This document shows, piece by piece, positions 4,507-11,002 of a DNA stretch of 11,169 bases. The stretch lies in the NCBI GenBank assembly GCA_028718405.1, contig JAQULV010000012.1, positions 1 to 11,169 on the forward strand. The letters run 5' to 3'. Within the stretch, counting starts at the first letter, position 1. Each line of letters starts with the position of its first letter. The translations under genes and the position numbers were made by a program. Source of the DNA: Smithellaceae bacterium (GTDB lineage Bacteria; Desulfobacterota; Syntrophia; Syntrophales; JAQULV01). The notes beneath the pieces were generated by a model that saw only the letters and a program-made list of their open reading frames with translations, did no database searches and was not told where the DNA came from.

Positions 4507-5022
4507 TTACCACCAGAAGGGATGTCCCTGGTGCAGGAGGTAGGGATAGCCGTACCATGGCCAAGGCTCCCCCATATAGATCTGAGGCATAGGCTTTTCC
4601 CAGAGGTGAATCTCATCAGCGGCCACAACCACATATGTATAGGTGCTTTGCCCCAACGGAAGTTTCTGCGTACCGGCGACCTTTCCGATGACAGTTACCT
4701 CACGTCCGCTATCGTATATCGCCGGATCTAGGAATTGGTCCGTTCGCACCATGAAGCGCCCAGACGATTTGTCGGGATGGGTGGGCTTCTTTTGAATGTC
4801 GAGTTCCGTTTGTGATATCGTAATCAAAGTCTCGCCCGGTCTATTGATGGTATCGACGATAATGCCTCCCCAAAGAACCGTGCTCCCCAGGAAGCGGGCG
4901 GGTTCCTGCCTCACTTCCGGAAGGGTTATTGATTGGTCCGCCGCACGCATGAGCGATGAAGAAAAGGGGGCGCAGGAAGTGATGAGGACAAATAATACGA
5001 GGAAAGAACAGCGACCTTTCAT
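4507..5022 (-). CDS. Slp-family outer-membrane lipoprotein, copy 1 (downstream)
   Basis: The 171-residue product has a short basic N terminus, a hydrophobic core and a lipobox ITSC ending at Cys17, so it should be lipidated and, lacking Asp at +2 (Ala18), sorted to the outer membrane. The body matches the Slp/YeaY family: FLGSTVLWGGII (44-55), TLITISQTELD (65-75), SSGRFMVRTDQFLDPAIY (86-103), REVTVIGKVAG (107-117) and YTYVVVAADEIHLW (128-141). E. coli Slp is induced by starvation and acid, but its function is poorly known. The tail (about 143-171) is rich in Trp, Tyr, Pro and Gly and ends FWW. The ATG overlaps the upstream slp stop as ATGA and is preceded by a full AGGAGGT eight bases upstream. 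No clear terminator separates it from the clpS promoter. Confidence 0.9.
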   Translation of the reverse strand: MKGRCSFLVLFVLITSCAPFSSSLMRAADQSITLPEVRQEPARFLGSTVLWGGIIVDTINRPGETLITISQTELDIQKKPTHPDKSSGRFMVRTDQFLDPAIYDSGREVTVIGKVAGTQKLPLGQSTYTYVVVAADEIHLWEKPMPQIYMGEPWPWYGYPYLLHQGHPFWW

Positions 5023-5507
5023 CTTATAACACCTCCTACGCCGATACTAAAATGAATGGGGGACTGTTCTTCTTCCGGCCGCCAGAGATGGTAATCTCGG
5101 GCGTTCAGGACCGGGTAAGTATAGGAGATTTCTTTTAGCGGCAGAACCTTCGTACCTTCCATTTCACCGATTACCGTTATGGATCTTCCGGGAGCATAGA
5201 TAGCCGGGTCCAGGAATTCCTTTACGCGAACGAGGAAGCGTCCCTGCGATTCGTCTGATCCCCTAGGTCTGTGGCGCCAGTCGAGGGACTGTTCGAGCAC
5301 TTCGATCCAGGTTTCCCTCTCTCTCTCAGACGTTCCGATGATCTGCCCACCCAGAATAAGGATCCTCCCGCGTAAATCATCAGGGTGTCTATTAAGTTCC
5401 GCGAAGGATAGGACAGGTTCGGCCTGTTTGAGCCACTCTGAGGAAAGGGGGGAACTGCAGCCACATAGAATAATGATAAGAGGCAGACACAAAAGCATTC
5501 TTTTCAT
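5019..5507 (-). CDS. Slp-family outer-membrane lipoprotein, copy 2 (upstream)
   Basis: The 162-residue product begins with a lipoprotein signal, lipobox LCGC ending at Cys17 with Ser at +2, which predicts outer-membrane sorting. Slp-family blocks follow in the same order as in the neighbouring copy: LRGRILILGGQIIG (45-58), ETWIEVLEQSLDW (65-77), SQGRFLVRVKEFLDPAIY (87-104), RSITVIGEMEG (108-118), and YTYPVLNARDYHLW (129-142). It lacks the aromatic tail of the other copy and ends with a short glycine-containing segment. A good ribosome site, GGAGGT, lies nine bases before the ATG. The two genes form a translationally coupled pair and are diverged paralogues, so an old duplication is likely. 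The molecular role of Slp proteins is unknown. Confidence 0.9.
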   Translation of the reverse strand: MKRMLLCLPLIIILCGCSSPLSSEWLKQAEPVLSFAELNRHPDDLRGRILILGGQIIGTSERERETWIEVLEQSLDWRHRPRGSDESQGRFLVRVKEFLDPAIYAPGRSITVIGEMEGTKVLPLKEISYTYPVLNARDYHLWRPEEEQSPIHFSIGVGGVIR

Positions 5508-6114: not shown

Positions 6115-7590
6115 ATGCTTACGGTTGTCTATCCTTATAGCGAGCAGCCCTGGTTAGAAAAGACCGTCAGGCATTATACCGCCTCGCCTCAGGTTAAGAA
6201 GCTCCTTGTTGTTGGGAATGCGGATCGCTCCTTCCGTATCGATGGTGTCGAGATATTTAAGACGCCAGCGATGTCTTCATCGTACGTCCTAGCCGAAGTG
6301 ATTGATAGGGTCAGTACGGAATATGTGCTTTTGGTCTGTCCCGTCGCTCCTGTTGTCCCCTGCACGGGCTCTCTTGATCGATTGCTCTATATTGCATCTG
6401 CGGCTGATGTCGGGATCATATACGCTGATTATCGTGCCTATGCAAACGGTCGCGCGGAGGACCGTCATCTTATCCCCTATCAGGCGGGCAGTATTCGCGA
6501 TGACTTCGATTTCGGGCCGGTGCTTCTCTTTTCTACAGAAGCCTTGCGCCAGGCAAAGGGTCGGACCCAAGACAATGAGTTCCGGCGAGCTGGGCTTTAT
6601 GACTTGAGGCTTAAAGTGGCGACGCGCTATGCAGTCAAGCATGTTCCTGAAGTGTTATTTGAGGTCGAGGAAGAGCTTAAAGAAGATGGCACGGAAAAAA
6701 GAGAGCGCCATTTTGATTACGTAGATCCGGTGAATATCGCGGTCCAGAAAGAGATGGAGTCTGCGGCCACGAATCATTTGAAAAGGATAGGTGCTTATCT
6801 GCCGCCGATTTATAAGGAACTTGATGAACTAAAGACTTCTTTCCCGGTGGAACTGTCTGTGGTCATCCCCGTCTTGAATCGTCGTACGACCATCTCCGAT
6901 GCTATCAAGAGCGCTCTTTCGCAGAAGACAGACTTTAGTTTCAATATCATCATCGTCGACAACCATTCCACAGACGGCACAACAGACATAGTTGCCGACA
7001 TGGCCGCACGGCATGCCGCAGTTCATCATCTCGTACCGGAGAGCTTCTCGCTCCAGATCGGAGGATGCTGGAACGAGGCCATCCACTCTAAACTGTGCGG
7101 CCGTTACGCTGTGCAGTTAGATTCGGACGATCTTTATGCCGATCTGGACAGCCTGCGGAAAATGTATTCGTTTATCAGTAGCGACGATTACGCCATGGTA
7201 ATCGGTTCATACACATTGGTGGACGAAAACATGGCCATTATACCACCCGGGGTAATTGACCACCGGGAGTGGACTGATGAAAATGGCAGGAATAACGCTT
7301 TGCGGATCAACGGCTTGGGAGCACCACGCGCCTTCCGAACAGACCTCATCAGAAAGATCGGATTTCTCAATGTGAGTTACGGTGAGGATTACGCTGCAGC
7401 CCTTCGTATTTCTCGAGAGTATCGGATAGGAAGGATCTACGAAAGTGTCTACTTGTGTAAGCGGTGGCAGGGAAACACGGATGCTTCTCTGCCAAGAGAG
7501 AGAATAAATCGGAACAACCTTTTTAAAGATTGGGTGCGGACCCTTGAAATAGCCGAGCGTCAGAAGATCAATCAAGCAAACGACAGGTAA
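6115..7590 (+). CDS. GT2 glycosyltransferase with an extra degenerate N-terminal GT-like half
   Basis: The 491-residue protein has a clear GT2 (GT-A) domain from about 244: VVIPVLNR (249-256), VDNHSTDGT (281-289) for nucleotide binding, the metal-binding DSDD (336-339), GED (423-425) with the likely catalytic-base acid, and RWQGNTD (450-456). The first 240 residues resemble a divergent GT-A half (GIIYADY at 100-106, SIRDDFDFGPVLLFS at 126-140) but lack a canonical DxD. No membrane span is evident, so it is probably cytoplasmic. From memory, Bacteroidetes carry a very similar GT2 beside DUF4922 genes, and the next gene here has a DUF4922-like domain. Sugar donor and acceptor cannot be told. 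There is no evident ribosome site; it starts 4 bp after the upstream stop, so coupled translation is likely. Its stop overlaps the next start as TAATG. Confidence 0.9.
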   Translation: MLTVVYPYSEQPWLEKTVRHYTASPQVKKLLVVGNADRSFRIDGVEIFKTPAMSSSYVLAEVIDRVSTEYVLLVCPVAPVVPCTGSLDRLLYIASAADVGIIYADYRAYANGRAEDRHLIPYQAGSIRDDFDFGPVLLFSTEALRQAKGRTQDNEFRRAGLYDLRLKVATRYAVKHVPEVLFEVEEELKEDGTEKRERHFDYVDPVNIAVQKEMESAATNHLKRIGAYLPPIYKELDELKTSFPVELSVVIPVLNRRTTISDAIKSALSQKTDFSFNIIIVDNHSTDGTTDIVADMAARHAAVHHLVPESFSLQIGGCWNEAIHSKLCGRYAVQLDSDDLYADLDSLRKMYSFISSDDYAMVIGSYTLVDENMAIIPPGVIDHREWTDENGRNNALRINGLGAPRAFRTDLIRKIGFLNVSYGEDYAAALRISREYRIGRIYESVYLCKRWQGNTDASLPRERINRNNLFKDWVRTLEIAERQKINQANDR

Positions 7591-9092
7591 TGGAAATCAA
7601 TATTCGCCCTTGGGAAGAGAAGGACCTGGAGCAGGTGAGGGCCGTGATCTGGCAGTCATGGCTGTCAACCTACGTTCATTTCATACCGGAAGAGGACCTG
7701 AGCGATTTCTTTAACGAACACTATTCATCGCGAGCGATCCGCGAATTGCGCCGCATGCCGGGAGTATACGGTTATGTAGTTGAGGCGCTTGGCGGGACGA
7801 TAGTGGGCTATATAAGAACGAAGTATGACCGCGATAGCCGCCGTTATTATATATCTTCCCTTTATCTGCTTCCAGATTTTCAGGGCCAGGGATTGGGTGG
7901 CAGGCTACTGATTGCAGCGGAAGACCACGCCCGGACGATTCACGAAGTAAAAAGGGTATGGATCGGTGTCATGAGGAGCAATGAAAGGGCACTCACCTGG
8001 TACAGAAAACTGGGTTTCAAATTCACCTCCGAGGAACCTTTCCGGATGGGAAAAACAGTAATCCCGCATCTAATTGGTTATAGGGATATAGGTATTCTTG
8101 CGGTCGAGGCGATGAATTATTCATCTCTGTCCAGGAAGATGACTTTGTCGGCACGGGCTGCAGATTTGGTTCAAGAGCAGAGGCGGGTTTGGGAATTGTT
8201 GAAAAATGGCTTGGAGGCACTTGATGAATGTCGCAGGCGGACGGTAGAATGCAACAATTTTTCGGTCATACTGCAACACAACCCCGGCAGGATAAGCAAC
8301 GCCACGGCAAAGATCGACCTGGTCTCATTGGCGTCAAGACCGTGCCTCCTCTGTCAGGCTAATCTGCCTAAGGAGCAAAGGGGAATCGATCTGGAGGGTG
8401 ATTGTCAGATTCTGTGTAATCCGGCGCCGATATTCTATCCTCATTATACGATCTGCCACAGGAATCATATACCTCAATCCCTTGAGAGCCACATGGACAT
8501 TTTTCTGCAGCTGGCTGCTGACATGGGGCCAGATTATCTGCTCCTTTACAACGGTCCGACCTGTGGCGCGTCGATTCCGGACCATCTTCATTTCCAAGCG
8601 ATTCCCGCAGGTAGCCTTCCCGTTGAGGATGATATCAAGGGCGACGAAGGGAATATCGCAATTAAAGAAGGAAGGACGATTTTAAGAAACATTAGCCGTA
8701 AGGGGAGGGCGATACTCGTTGCCAGGGGTGATGAGAAACGGGATGTCAAAAAGATTGTTCAAGGAATCATCTTCGCGATGGAAAGCGAAGATCCTCAAAA
8801 AGGAGGTCGGATGTTAAATGCCTGTTGTCGGAAGAGAGATAATTTCTGGCAGCTTATCATTTTTCCAAGGGGCAAGCACCGACCGGATGCCTATTTTCGG
8901 AGCGACGAAAAGAGGGTGCTCGTGAGCCCCGGGGTAATCGATATGGGGGGTGTTATTGTTCTCCCCGACCAGAGGGATTTTGACAGACTGAAAGGCACAG
9001 ATGTGGAGGACATCTACCGCGAGGTGTCTATAGGCAACGAACATCTGGAAAGGATTATAACTCGGACGAAAAAAATCTTATCTGGGCGATAG
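7590..9092 (+). CDS. GNAT acetyltransferase fused to DUF4922-like (GalT/HIT-type) nucleotidyltransferase/phosphorylase domain
   Basis: One uninterrupted 500-residue frame holds two domains. Residues 1-167 are a GNAT N-acyltransferase: IRPWEEKDLEQVR at the start, the acetyl-CoA pyrophosphate loop QGQGLG at 98-103 after SSLYLLPDF, and the C-terminal NERALTWYRKLGFK (131-144). A linker (about 168-190) leads to a DUF4922-like domain. It has HNPGRISNATAKID (230-243), a possible zinc pair C252-x2-C255, PAPIFYPHYTI (278-288), and NGPTCGASIPDHLHFQA (321-337). H332-x-H334-x-Q336 matches the HxHxQ active site of the GalT/GDP-galactose phosphorylase branch, with H334 the predicted nucleophile. A nucleotidyl- or phosphoryl-transfer role on a sugar phosphate or nucleotide is inferred, with acetylation of an amino group by the GNAT half. 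It has a 1-bp overlap with the glycosyltransferase gene and no strong ribosome site of its own. Confidence 0.88.
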   Translation: MEINIRPWEEKDLEQVRAVIWQSWLSTYVHFIPEEDLSDFFNEHYSSRAIRELRRMPGVYGYVVEALGGTIVGYIRTKYDRDSRRYYISSLYLLPDFQGQGLGGRLLIAAEDHARTIHEVKRVWIGVMRSNERALTWYRKLGFKFTSEEPFRMGKTVIPHLIGYRDIGILAVEAMNYSSLSRKMTLSARAADLVQEQRRVWELLKNGLEALDECRRRTVECNNFSVILQHNPGRISNATAKIDLVSLASRPCLLCQANLPKEQRGIDLEGDCQILCNPAPIFYPHYTICHRNHIPQSLESHMDIFLQLAADMGPDYLLLYNGPTCGASIPDHLHFQAIPAGSLPVEDDIKGDEGNIAIKEGRTILRNISRKGRAILVARGDEKRDVKKIVQGIIFAMESEDPQKGGRMLNACCRKRDNFWQLIIFPRGKHRPDAYFRSDEKRVLVSPGVIDMGGVIVLPDQRDFDRLKGTDVEDIYREVSIGNEHLERIITRTKKILSGR

Positions 9093-9102
9093 GGTAGGAG
9101 AG

Positions 9103-9684
9103 ATGACGAAAATTATACTGGACAGTGAAATGAGTTTTTCCGATGCGGTTGCGCAGACAAGCGCACCATGGGAAGTGATAGAGACTCTTTCCCTTCTCTC
9201 CGTTGATTATTATTCTTTCGACGGTATGATCCACCGGGGACAATTGGTCCTGCATCGGGAACTTATTTCTGATGTCAGAGAAATTTTTTCTCGTGCCATT
9301 GCAATCAAATTTCCAATCGGTCAATGTGTCCCGATTGTCGCATACGGTTGGGATGACGAGACGTCTATGAAGGCCAACAACACCTCTGCATTCAACTATC
9401 GCCTTGTGGCGGGAACGAACCGACTCTCGCTTCATGCCTTGGGTAGGGCCATCGATATAAATCCCCTCTTAAATCCGGCAGTCTACGATGACGGACGGAT
9501 CAGTCCGGAAGGGGCTGTCTATGAAGCTGGCAGGAACGGAGTCCTGAGTCCCGATTATCCTCCGTGCCAAGATTTTTTGGGCTTGGGTTGGAGATGGGGA
9601 GCCGACCTGGACGGACTCAGGGATTACCATCATTTTTATAAGACGCCCTTAGGTAACAGCATTTATCCACTGTGCCGGGGATGA
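9103..9684 (+). CDS. M15-family (VanY/LD-carboxypeptidase-like) metallopeptidase without signal peptide
   Basis: The 193-residue protein carries the zinc-binding pattern of peptidase family M15. SLHALGRAIDINPLLNP (109-125) supplies H111 and D118, and GLGWRWGADLDGLRDYHHFY (160-179) supplies the last ligand, most likely H177. M15 enzymes cut D-Ala-D-Ala, D-Ala-D-Lac or L-Ala-D-Glu bonds in peptidoglycan stems. Unlike most, this one has no hydrophobic signal or lipobox, so it appears cytoplasmic and could trim recycled wall peptides or act on a precursor. The usual Glu after the final His-Phe is Tyr here (F178-Y179), which deserves caution about activity. The start at 9103 has AGGG about eight bases upstream; M10 is an alternative. 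It lies 10 bp after the GNAT-DUF4922 gene and ends the operon. Confidence 0.88.
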   Translation: MTKIILDSEMSFSDAVAQTSAPWEVIETLSLLSVDYYSFDGMIHRGQLVLHRELISDVREIFSRAIAIKFPIGQCVPIVAYGWDDETSMKANNTSAFNYRLVAGTNRLSLHALGRAIDINPLLNPAVYDDGRISPEGAVYEAGRNGVLSPDYPPCQDFLGLGWRWGADLDGLRDYHHFYKTPLGNSIYPLCRG

Positions 9685-9742: not shown

Positions 9743-9758
9743 TGTGAAACATATCATA
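9743..9758. promoter_or_regulatory. Upstream, imperfect CRP-type operator
   Basis: TGTGA (9743-9747), six bases, then TCATA (9754-9758) matches TGTGA-N6-TCACA at nine of ten arm positions. Its centre is 23 bp upstream of the perfect site, about two helical turns, so both would lie on the same face. Relative to the predicted transcription start near 9833 it centres near -82. Confidence 0.62.
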
Positions 9759-9765
9759 ATATAAA

Positions 9766-9781
9766 TGTGAAAATTCTCACA
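9766..9781. promoter_or_regulatory. Perfect CRP-type operator TGTGA-N6-TCACA
   Basis: TGTGAAAATTCTCACA has both arms identical to the CRP consensus with the correct 6-bp spacer. Flanking AAA and TAA extend the 22-bp consensus. The centre is 9773.5, about 60 bp before the predicted start near 9833, the classical class I activation distance. The regulator encoded at 10047 has a CRP-like recognition helix (RESVNK), so autoregulation is likely. Confidence 0.88.
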
Positions 9782-9799
9782 TAAAGTCGTCTAAATGTC

Positions 9800-9826
9800 T
9801 TGCTGGAAAGAAAAATTTTGTATAAA
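9800..9826 (+). promoter_or_regulatory. Probable promoter for the riboswitch/CRP-family transcript
   Basis: TTGCTG (9800-9805) and TATAAA (9821-9826) are separated by 15 bp, shorter than optimal, which would fit a promoter needing an activator. Initiation would fall near 9833, right at the 5' edge of the aptamer. The -10 area, TTGTATAAA, resembles one at 10878-10886 ahead of the next gene. Confidence 0.55.
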
Positions 9827-9830
9827 CACT

Positions 9831-9915
9831 ATCCGACCGGAAAAAGCCAAACCCTCTGCGAAGGGGGGACGGAAAGCCACGGATCTCCCGTAAGATCGCC
9901 GAGCCGCCGAAAGTC
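9831..9915 (+). promoter_or_regulatory. c-di-GMP-I (GEMM-I) riboswitch aptamer
   Basis: The core fits the GEMM-I architecture base by base. A G (9846) precedes CC (9847-9848), AAA (9849-9851), a six-pair stem 9852-9857/9862-9867 capped by the GNRA loop GCGA, then GAC (9868-9870), GG (9871-9872) and AAAGCC (9873-9878). In the usual sequence the GC/GC pairs flank these loops (GCAAACC ... GGGACGC). Here the outer pair is C-G instead of G-C, a compensatory change that keeps the helix. A second hairpin pairs 9882-9886 with 9893-9897, shorter than typical. The closing GCCGAGCCGCCGA (9898-9910) resembles the conserved 3' strand. The G at the position equivalent to Vc2 G20 favours c-di-GMP over 3',3'-cGAMP, which prefers A there. 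It lies in the leader of the CRP-family gene. Confidence 0.87.
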
Positions 9916-10046
9916 TGAAAAATAATCAACGATCACACAATCTAGATGAATAACTGGCCTCAACACAGAGGGCTGATTTACCGTGTTCGAGCAAGATATT
10001 TTAAAATGTCCATTTGCGGCTTACAAGAGAGGTGTGGAGAGTAGAC
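9916..10046 (+). other. Leader between aptamer and CRP-family start (expression platform)
   Basis: These 131 bases follow the aptamer and hold no gene. No strong hairpin with a T tract was seen, so control by transcription termination is not obvious. CTCAACAC (9959-9966) can pair with GTGTGGAG (10032-10039), which includes the ribosome site, at seven of eight positions. Translational control by hiding the ribosome site is therefore possible. CCTC (9958-9961) can instead pair with GAGG nearby (9968-9971), giving two competing folds. Confidence 0.4.
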
Positions 10047-10736
10047 ATGGGGAGACCAGAGATATTCTTAAAAAACGTCCCTCTTTTTTGTGATCTTTCG
10101 GTGACTGATATAAGGCGGATTGCCGAACTGGTCGAGCCGCAGTTTATAAGAAAAGGGGAAGTCCTTTTTCGCCGTGGGGAAGAGGGAACGGCATTTTACA
10201 TCATCGTGACAGGAAAAATAAAAATCGTTCGCCAATCTTCGCTGGGCGAGGAAGTCGTGCTAGCCATCCTTAAAAATGGCGATTTTCTAGGGGAAATGTC
10301 GCTTTTGGACGGCCTTCCGCGATCTGCAGATGCGGTAGCCCTGGAAGAAACCAACCTTTACGTGCTCAGCCGAACAGAATTCTTTTCATTCGTGATTAAC
10401 AATGAAAGCGCCATAAAATCAATATTATCGTCCCTCTCTGTTCGGCTGCGCAAGGCTGATGATTTTCTCGAGGACAGTTCATTCTTGAACCTTTCCTCGC
10501 GACTGCTTAAAAGGATCGTTGATCTCGCGGAACTGTATTGTCAGGACGAAGTAAAAAAGGGCAGGGTATCATTCTCGATGACGCAAAGTGAGATTGCGAG
10601 CATGATCGGGGCAACACGCGAGAGCGTTAACAAGGAATTCAGAAACCTGCGTGAGAAGGGACTGCTGAGTACGGCCGGAAAAACCATAACTGTACACGAT
10701 ATAGATAAGATCAAGAAATTAGTTAGAAAAGGATAG
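10047..10736 (+). CDS. CRP/FNR-family transcriptional regulator
   Basis: The 229-residue protein has a cyclic-nucleotide-binding beta-roll (about 7-118), a dimerisation helix (about 119-145) and a C-terminal winged helix-turn-helix (about 150-226). In the phosphate-binding cassette, GEMSLLDGLPRSA (82-94) keeps the Glu, Arg and Ser (E83, R92, S93) that contact cAMP in CRP, so a cNMP ligand is plausible. The recognition helix GATRESVNKEF (188-198) keeps the Arg-Glu pair of CRP, with Lys at the second Arg position. This predicts binding to TGTGA-type sites, two of which lie upstream. There is no N-terminal cysteine cluster, so it is not an FNR iron-sulfur sensor. The ATG at 10047 has GGAG eight bases upstream and places the roll at the usual distance. 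The gene follows a c-di-GMP riboswitch leader. Confidence 0.95.
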   Translation: MGRPEIFLKNVPLFCDLSVTDIRRIAELVEPQFIRKGEVLFRRGEEGTAFYIIVTGKIKIVRQSSLGEEVVLAILKNGDFLGEMSLLDGLPRSADAVALEETNLYVLSRTEFFSFVINNESAIKSILSSLSVRLRKADDFLEDSSFLNLSSRLLKRIVDLAELYCQDEVKKGRVSFSMTQSEIASMIGATRESVNKEFRNLREKGLLSTAGKTITVHDIDKIKKLVRKG

Positions 10737-11002
10737 CAAGCTAGCGTAATAGCTGAATATCGTGCGACAATGTATCGGCAGTATCTCAATGATCGACCTC
10801 GACTACTGGAGGAAAAAATTATAAGTAAAAAGCGTTATTTCAACATTATGCTTGATTGGCTTAATCAATTTTGGTAAATGTATAAATCTAAACGAAACTG
10901 CGGTGCATCCAGAATGGAAGGCAAAGACGCATAAGGCCTGAATTTTTAGAAGATCAGTGCTTGTGCATCACAGGAAAACCTTTCAGATCTTGAGGGGGCG
11001 GA
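10737..11002. other. Non-coding spacer and leader before a secreted-protein gene
   Basis: No confident gene was found in these 266 bp. The stretch holds an AT-rich inverted repeat (10852-10868), a TGTATAAA motif (10879-10886) that may be a -10 element, and a potentially folded leader (10899-10931 and beyond). The leader does not match the GEMM-I consensus. The first part stays open in the frame of the preceding regulator up to 10877, with a 35-codon ATG frame at 10770-10877 that has no ribosome site and was not called. Confidence 0.5.
10852..10868. repeat. Inverted repeat TTGATT-N5-AATCAA
   Basis: A perfect six-base dyad with a five-base spacer lies 116 bp after the regulator stop and is followed by TTTTGG. 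As RNA it is an AU-rich hairpin with a short U run, at best a weak terminator. As DNA its TTGAT and ATCAA arms look FNR-like, but the spacing is seven rather than four bases. It overlaps where a -35 element for the next gene would be. Confidence 0.45.

Follow-up and report, generated by a model that had tools for sequence, protein, structure and literature searches.

Can a single regulator gene be wired to two nucleotide messengers, one acting at its promoter and the other in the leader of its messenger RNA? The question is raised by a locus on an 11,169-base contig (JAQULV010000012.1, assembly GCA_028718405.1; C12 in our numbering) of a Smithellaceae bacterium from the order Syntrophales of the phylum Desulfobacterota. 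The whole contig is called the window below, and it belongs to a draft genome of 2.04 Mb in 415 contigs, with a completeness of 85.76% and a contamination of 4.41%. Along the + strand follow, in this order, two CRP-type sites, a putative -10 box, a class-I cyclic di-GMP (c-di-GMP) aptamer, a leader of 134 bases and a gene of the CRP/FNR family. A sequence-only reading of this DNA had pointed to the sites, the aptamer and the gene, and all of them are confirmed at the coordinates collected in Table 1, the two operators together spanning 9743-9781. Its wider proposal, that two nucleotide signals converge on one gene, is partly supported. The best reading appears to be a CRP-type gene that is autoregulated and has a leader responsive to c-di-GMP, and we believe it somewhat more than we doubt it, since three things coincide at one place: the one regulator found in the genome whose recognition helix reads R-E-x-x-x-K, an exact operator before its gene and an aptamer pocket suited to c-di-GMP; matches to GGDEF and cyclase domains in the same genome point the same way.

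Table 1. Positions of the regulatory elements and of the regulator gene in the window
Feature	Position	Strand	Basis or remark
CRP-type operator 1, TGTGA-N6-TCATA	9743..9758	+	TGTGAAACATATCATA, 1 mismatch to TGTGA-N6-TCACA
CRP-type operator 2, exact TGTGA-N6-TCACA palindrome	9766..9781	+	TGTGAAAATTCTCACA
Putative -10 hexamer TATAAA	9821-9826	+	Candidate read by eye
c-di-GMP-I (GEMM-I) aptamer	9837..9912	+	RF03167 63.7 bits, RF01051 56.0 bits
Pocket base G20 (Vc2 numbering)	9846	+	Rfam alignment and published contacts
Pocket base A47 (GGC consensus: G)	9873	+	Rfam alignment and published contacts
Pocket base C92	9907	+	Rfam alignment and published contacts
Leader, aptamer to start codon	9913..10046	+	Shine-Dalgarno sequence GGAG at 10036-10039; no terminator-like site
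CRP/FNR-family regulator, 229 amino acids, ATG start	10047..10736	+	PF00027, PF13545, PF00325

The protein joins a cyclic nucleotide monophosphate (cNMP)-binding domain to a Crp-type helix-turn-helix (HTH), the combination that marks the CRP/FNR family, and all three Pfam matches lie above their cut-offs (PF00027, 90.4 bits, E 7.5e-26; PF13545, HTH_Crp_2, 59.1 bits, E 4.3e-16; PF00325, 25.3 bits). With the equivalog model for Escherichia coli-type CRP, NF008732, it scores 85.9 bits, below the curated cut-off of 266. The top solved chain overall is 9ya0, a protein of 2736 residues that matches via its cNMP domains, and the nearest solved bacterial regulators are Mycobacterium tuberculosis CRP (Rv3676, 3d0s), followed by 4byy, 4cyd and 3r6s, which we take to be GlxR. 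The recognition helix GATRESVNK aligns to GASRETVNK of 3d0s, so that both proteins share R-E-[ST]-V-N-K. Residues R191, E192 and K196 give the R-E-x-x-x-[RK] pattern by which E. coli CRP binds TGTGA-N6-TCACA. In all of the 120 proteins listed, the window protein included, this helix keeps R, E, N and K, and the nearest of the others is 59% identical to the window protein. The binding consensus of M. tuberculosis CRP closely resembles the E. coli one (PMC4005916). Six proteins with a cNMP domain were found in the genome, three of which carry a Crp-type HTH; the recognition helices of the other two read PETLSR and PEALSR, and R-E-x-x-x-K is unique to the window regulator among the three. Elsewhere in this genome, a BrkB-type (PF03631) membrane protein is fused to a cNMP-binding domain (L106, G000:C128).

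What the regulator itself senses is less straightforward. The pocket had been called similar to that for cyclic AMP (cAMP), and this holds for four of the six contact residues (E...RS...R...TS) listed in Table 1 of PMC4005916, namely E83, R92, S93 and one arginine of R133-L-R135. It does not hold for the C-helix, where Thr-Ser is replaced by A137 and D138, and the full six-contact set of a cAMP-binding CRP is not present. These replacements are common to most of the 120 listed proteins (A137 in 112, D138 in 118). Rv3676 differs from the window protein in having T-N at the same positions, and its gene in lacking the riboswitch that stands before the window gene. M. tuberculosis CRP also diverges from E. 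coli at the cAMP contacts and binds cAMP weakly (PMC4005916). The ligand of the window regulator may be a cyclic mononucleotide. Enzymes for both kinds of messenger are represented in the genome by six GGDEF matches and two class III cyclase matches.

The two operators stand in direct-repeat relation with a centre-to-centre spacing of 23 bp. Shuffling the window 200 times with its dinucleotides preserved gave no exact palindrome, while the two sites with at most one mismatch compare with a shuffle mean of 0.22, a count of two being reached in 3 of the 200 shuffles. At up to two mismatches the window holds no excess (3 found, 3.38 expected from the shuffles). Genome-wide, operator 2 is the sole exact occurrence in the 2.04-Mb draft, and one such match is no excess either, about two being expected by chance for ten fixed bases. 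Because the exact-match count is itself not above chance, the evidence for the operators rests on their position and on the neighbouring second site: the only exact operator found in the genome stands before the gene of the only R-E-x-x-x-K CRP-type regulator found there. Downstream of them, the putative -10 hexamer, with which a weak -35 element can be paired by eye, would place the start of transcription at about 9833-9835, 7-9 bases past TATAAA. The centre of operator 2 would then lie at about -59.5 to -61.5, presumably the class I activator position of E. coli CRP. No sigma-70 promoter was reported at this start by a consensus scan, a silence that suits an activator-dependent promoter, yet leaves the promoter without independent evidence.

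A role beyond its own gene was also considered for the regulator, which the sequence-only reading had described as global. Sites with at most one mismatch number 24 in the genome, both operators of the window included, against 3 for a reversed control pattern. Scaling the window shuffle rate of 0.22 per 11.2 kb gives about 40 genome-wide, and the observed 24 fall below this figure. Among the 22 other sites 13 were examined, and 3 of these lie outside open reading frames (ORFs) of at least 90 amino acids. A global regulon was rejected on both counts.

The aptamer exceeds the gathering scores of both relevant Rfam models, 59 for c-di-GMP-I-GGC (RF03167, E 1.8e-13) and 35 for c-di-GMP-I (RF01051), and is the sole c-di-GMP-I match found in its genome. 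For comparison, a set of 100 genomes of the order was used, which includes its own and otherwise holds no member of the same family or genus. Matches occur in 45 of these genomes, again with its own included, and 100 of the 104 matches were examined after the 4 weakest had been excluded (99 loci, 45 genomes). The bases that contact the ligand were taken as G20, A47 and C92 from PMC4744006 and PMC3764141, with the contact list of PMC7288161; according to the same three papers, the numbering is anchored by the P2 pair G45-C22 and by A47 to A49 coming after C46. The pocket reads G-A-C in 97 of the 100 examined aptamers, own included, and A-A-C in 3; G47 occurs in none, and A47 and C92 are each present in all 100. 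Since the window aptamer has the ordinary G-A-C set, its predicted ligand is c-di-GMP. In the Rfam register 8 of 8 pairs of P2 and 8 of 10 pairs of P3 are formed, P3 being short. A GCAAAGACGCA-like stretch near 10920, past the gene, was rejected as a second aptamer, as it gave no Rfam match at E values up to 5; the scan returned just the aptamer already described and one chance hit.

How would these parts work together? Their order, their common strand and a scan that found nothing terminator-like on the + strand from 9912 to 10047 lead us to infer a single transcription unit comprising the sites, the aptamer and the gene. The sequence-only reading had put aptamer and gene in the same transcript, and the layout agrees with this, although the transcript itself is deduced from that layout. 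In such a unit the regulator, probably with a cyclic mononucleotide bound, would bind both sites and most likely activate its own weak -35 promoter from the class I position. The transcript would start at or just 5' of the P1 stem of the aptamer, and binding of c-di-GMP would alter expression of the gene downstream. Control would more likely act on translation or mRNA stability than through an intrinsic terminator, for which the leader offers no candidate. By this route c-di-GMP would set the gain of the autoregulatory loop, and the switch could act in either direction.

Two groups of results weigh against an autoregulated gene with a c-di-GMP leader, and the first concerns the operators. In the closest CRP relatives they are not clearly conserved: across 32 upstream regions, 30 of them distinct (L092 and L093 repeat L033 and L034) and two of them short (55 and 81 nt), the best site has one mismatch in 1 (0.2 expected) and two mismatches in 5 (2.9 expected). 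Conserved autoregulation among the relatives was rejected, there being no clear sites upstream of their CRP genes. The same lack of clear sites favours the alternative that a different regulator uses the promoter sites, or that the protein represses its own gene, and the incompleteness of the draft adds to it, because another CRP may be absent from the assembly. However, the window protein is the only one of the three Crp-HTH proteins found with a helix of the type that pairs with TGTGA-like half sites, and we regard this alternative as unlikely, though it is the most serious one.

The second group concerns the RNA. Only 1 of 3 pairs of P1 forms in the Rfam register, and the stem probably extends to 9835/9915 when placed by eye, with the proposed pairs G9835-C9915, A9836-U9914, C9837-G9913, C9838-G9909 and G9840-C9908. 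Taken alone, the aptamer stretch is slightly less stable than its shuffles (z +1.19) and is predicted to adopt a fold other than that of the aptamer, while imposing the aptamer fold costs from 9.9 kcal/mol (transcript end 9920) to 19.6 kcal/mol (end 10110) in energies that omit ligand and tertiary contacts. The stability of the leader does not exceed that of shuffled sequences (z -0.15). In the 278-base ensemble of 9833-10110 the Shine-Dalgarno sequence is unpaired at 0.18 both when folded freely and when constrained to the aptamer, and in either case it pairs for the most part with the beginning of the coding region. Its accessibility was also compared at eleven transcript ends between 10046 and 10180; the two states differ by up to 0.21, with either sign, and for end 10064 the shift falls within the range of shuffles, 45 of 60 being at or above it. 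To this is added that an Rfam scan of the CRP loci of relatives found no c-di-GMP aptamer at any of 29; these 29 were drawn from 44 other matches, and two of the 29 (L037, L042) have less than 100 nt upstream, while for the remaining 15 the genome or the contig has no listed aptamer match.

Two ways of switching were considered and set aside on these grounds: sequestration of the ribosome-binding site, as the accessibility of the Shine-Dalgarno sequence shows no consistent dependence on the aptamer fold, and transcription termination, as the leader lacks a + strand terminator-like site. Pairing between the 5' strand of P2 and the purine tract that precedes the start codon is not claimed, since it appears only at some transcript ends (0.79 at 10052, 0.06 at 10058, 0.50 at 10070, 0.00 at 10110). 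The statement that c-di-GMP sets the level of the regulator thus goes further than the leader scan and the folding, in neither of which an expression platform that answers to the aptamer fold stands out. The leader also contains a GTG-started ORF of 36 amino acids (9983-10093), which runs in a different frame into the first codons of the regulator gene and may be a leader peptide or chance.

From these results it could be argued that the aptamer binds c-di-GMP without switching the gene, or is a relic, and that autoregulation alone is functional. Such an outcome would have a precedent in Bc1 of B. thuringiensis, which binds c-di-GMP while expression of the gene downstream does not follow c-di-GMP (PMC11218506), and it would agree with the missing terminator, with the lack of a clear Shine-Dalgarno switch in folding and with neighbouring CRP loci that have no aptamer. 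A relic would be expected to decay, however, whereas the pocket bases and nearly all pairs of P2 and P3 are kept here, and C44, A47, A49 and C92 match columns that are conserved in all 100 examined order aptamers. We therefore consider a leader without effect on the gene doubtful, and prefer an autoregulated gene with a c-di-GMP input.

That input could in principle be another cyclic dinucleotide, either 3',3'-cyclic GMP-AMP (cGAMP) or the ligand of the GGC variant, which was reportedly defined by Weinberg and others in 2017. RF03167 indeed scores above RF01051 (63.7 against 56.0 bits). Naming the aptamer a GGC variant was nevertheless rejected, because position 9873 (model position 37) holds A instead of the consensus G; here G47 is taken as the middle G of the name 'GGC', as read from the Rfam consensus. 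Relative to the RF01051 and RF03167 families the window aptamer thus shares the fold, scores above both gathering thresholds and the G20, A47, C92 pocket, and differs in its short P3, in a 21-46 pair flipped to C-G and in lacking G47. RF03167 also rises above its gathering score on order aptamers with a G-A-C pocket, and the label is not to be read as altered ligand specificity. That it can be assigned to ordinary c-di-GMP pockets matters for genome annotation in Desulfobacterota.

For cGAMP the deciding base is position 20, where an A is, as we understand it, the mark of the natural 3',3'-cGAMP riboswitch class; the window aptamer has G. According to PMC10333796, it is G20 that determines the choice of c-di-GMP over cAMP-GMP, and a G20A mutant is reported to bind cGAMP (PMC7288161). 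A further point for a different ligand is the flipped 21-46 pair, which adjoins the pocket, as G21 and C46 were energetically important in modelling (PMC9049102). The flipped pair, however, coexists with G20 and A47 in many loci: it was found in 11 of the 100 examined order aptamers, and in a regex count on the phylum sample it is, together with G20 and A47, the commonest form (48 against 27), for which reason a rare subclass was rejected. A ligand other than c-di-GMP appears improbable on this evidence. Separately, an exported protein with a VPxPA/PEP-CTERM-like tail (regex) lies downstream of 5 of the 11 flipped C21-G46 aptamers and of 0 of the 82 others with at least 600 nt downstream; the loci are L011, L155, L156 and L158, two of the five cases being tandem aptamers at one locus.

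How common, then, is the pairing of aptamer and regulator gene? Among the 100 examined order matches, 93 of which have at least 600 nt downstream, the window locus is the only one with a CRP gene downstream of the aptamer. The search for such genes used a hidden Markov model of the 120 listed proteins, and this model picks up the other cNMP proteins of the genome as well. In a phylum sample of 109 loci among the matches listed, chosen mostly by rank with some near-duplicates skipped, no CRP gene lies downstream on the aptamer strand; L208 (G052) duplicates an order locus, and L201, L204, L243 and L272 have less than 600 nt downstream. At L198 (G196:C211) a CRP-family gene adjoins a c-di-GMP-I aptamer and is transcribed away from it. 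In a search limited to open-licence papers, no crp gene with a described c-di-GMP riboswitch turned up. The synteny that the sequence-only reading had suggested looking for in Desulfobacterota is thus not a conserved arrangement among the loci examined; each part is ordinary and the combination seems rare, and as far as sampled the arrangement looks specific to the lineage of the window genome. An assembly or binning artefact joining an unrelated aptamer and gene, which the fragmented and slightly contaminated draft and the uniqueness of the pairing might suggest, is very improbable, as one strand of a single 11-kb contig carries all the elements, the sites included, inside 1 kb and in a plausible regulatory order.

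Ahead of the locus, positions 9103-9684 encode a member of the D-alanyl-D-alanine carboxypeptidase family. Further upstream in the window, positions 7590-9092 encode a GNAT acetyltransferase fused to DUF4922, and two genes for Slp-family outer-membrane lipoproteins stand side by side at 4507-5507 on the - strand, near clpS, clpA and aat.

Among known systems, V. cholerae gbpA comes closest: the gene has a CRP site 5' of its riboswitch, Vc1, and is activated by CRP-cAMP (PMC4545359). The common features are a CRP site 5' of a leader with a class-I c-di-GMP aptamer and the convergence of cAMP and c-di-GMP on one gene, whereas in the window the controlled gene would be that of the regulator itself. 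In gbpA, c-di-GMP inhibits transcription independently of Vc1 (PMC4545359), while expression downstream of the isolated Vc1 element rises with c-di-GMP (PMC4744006). By analogy, gbpA and Bc1 warn that an aptamer in a leader need not explain the effect of c-di-GMP. CRP/FNR regulators are tied to c-di-GMP in another way in Clp and Bcam1349, CRP-like proteins that bind c-di-GMP themselves and require a signature glutamate, E99 (PMC10333796). There the sensor is the protein, whereas in the window it is predicted to be the mRNA leader. We take E99 of Clp to correspond to the Ser of R-S in CRP.

Links between cAMP/CRP and c-di-GMP have mostly been described through enzymes, with CRP controlling cyclases, or through target genes like gbpA. 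For this organism a more far-reaching, and tentative, proposal is that its sole c-di-GMP-I riboswitch controls its sole R-E-x-x-x-K regulator, which would activate itself, so that c-di-GMP would set the gain of the loop and perhaps produce bistability, making one gene a gate for two messengers. If a riboswitch does act on the regulator gene, a leader of about 300 bases would bring the whole CRP response under the gain control of c-di-GMP.
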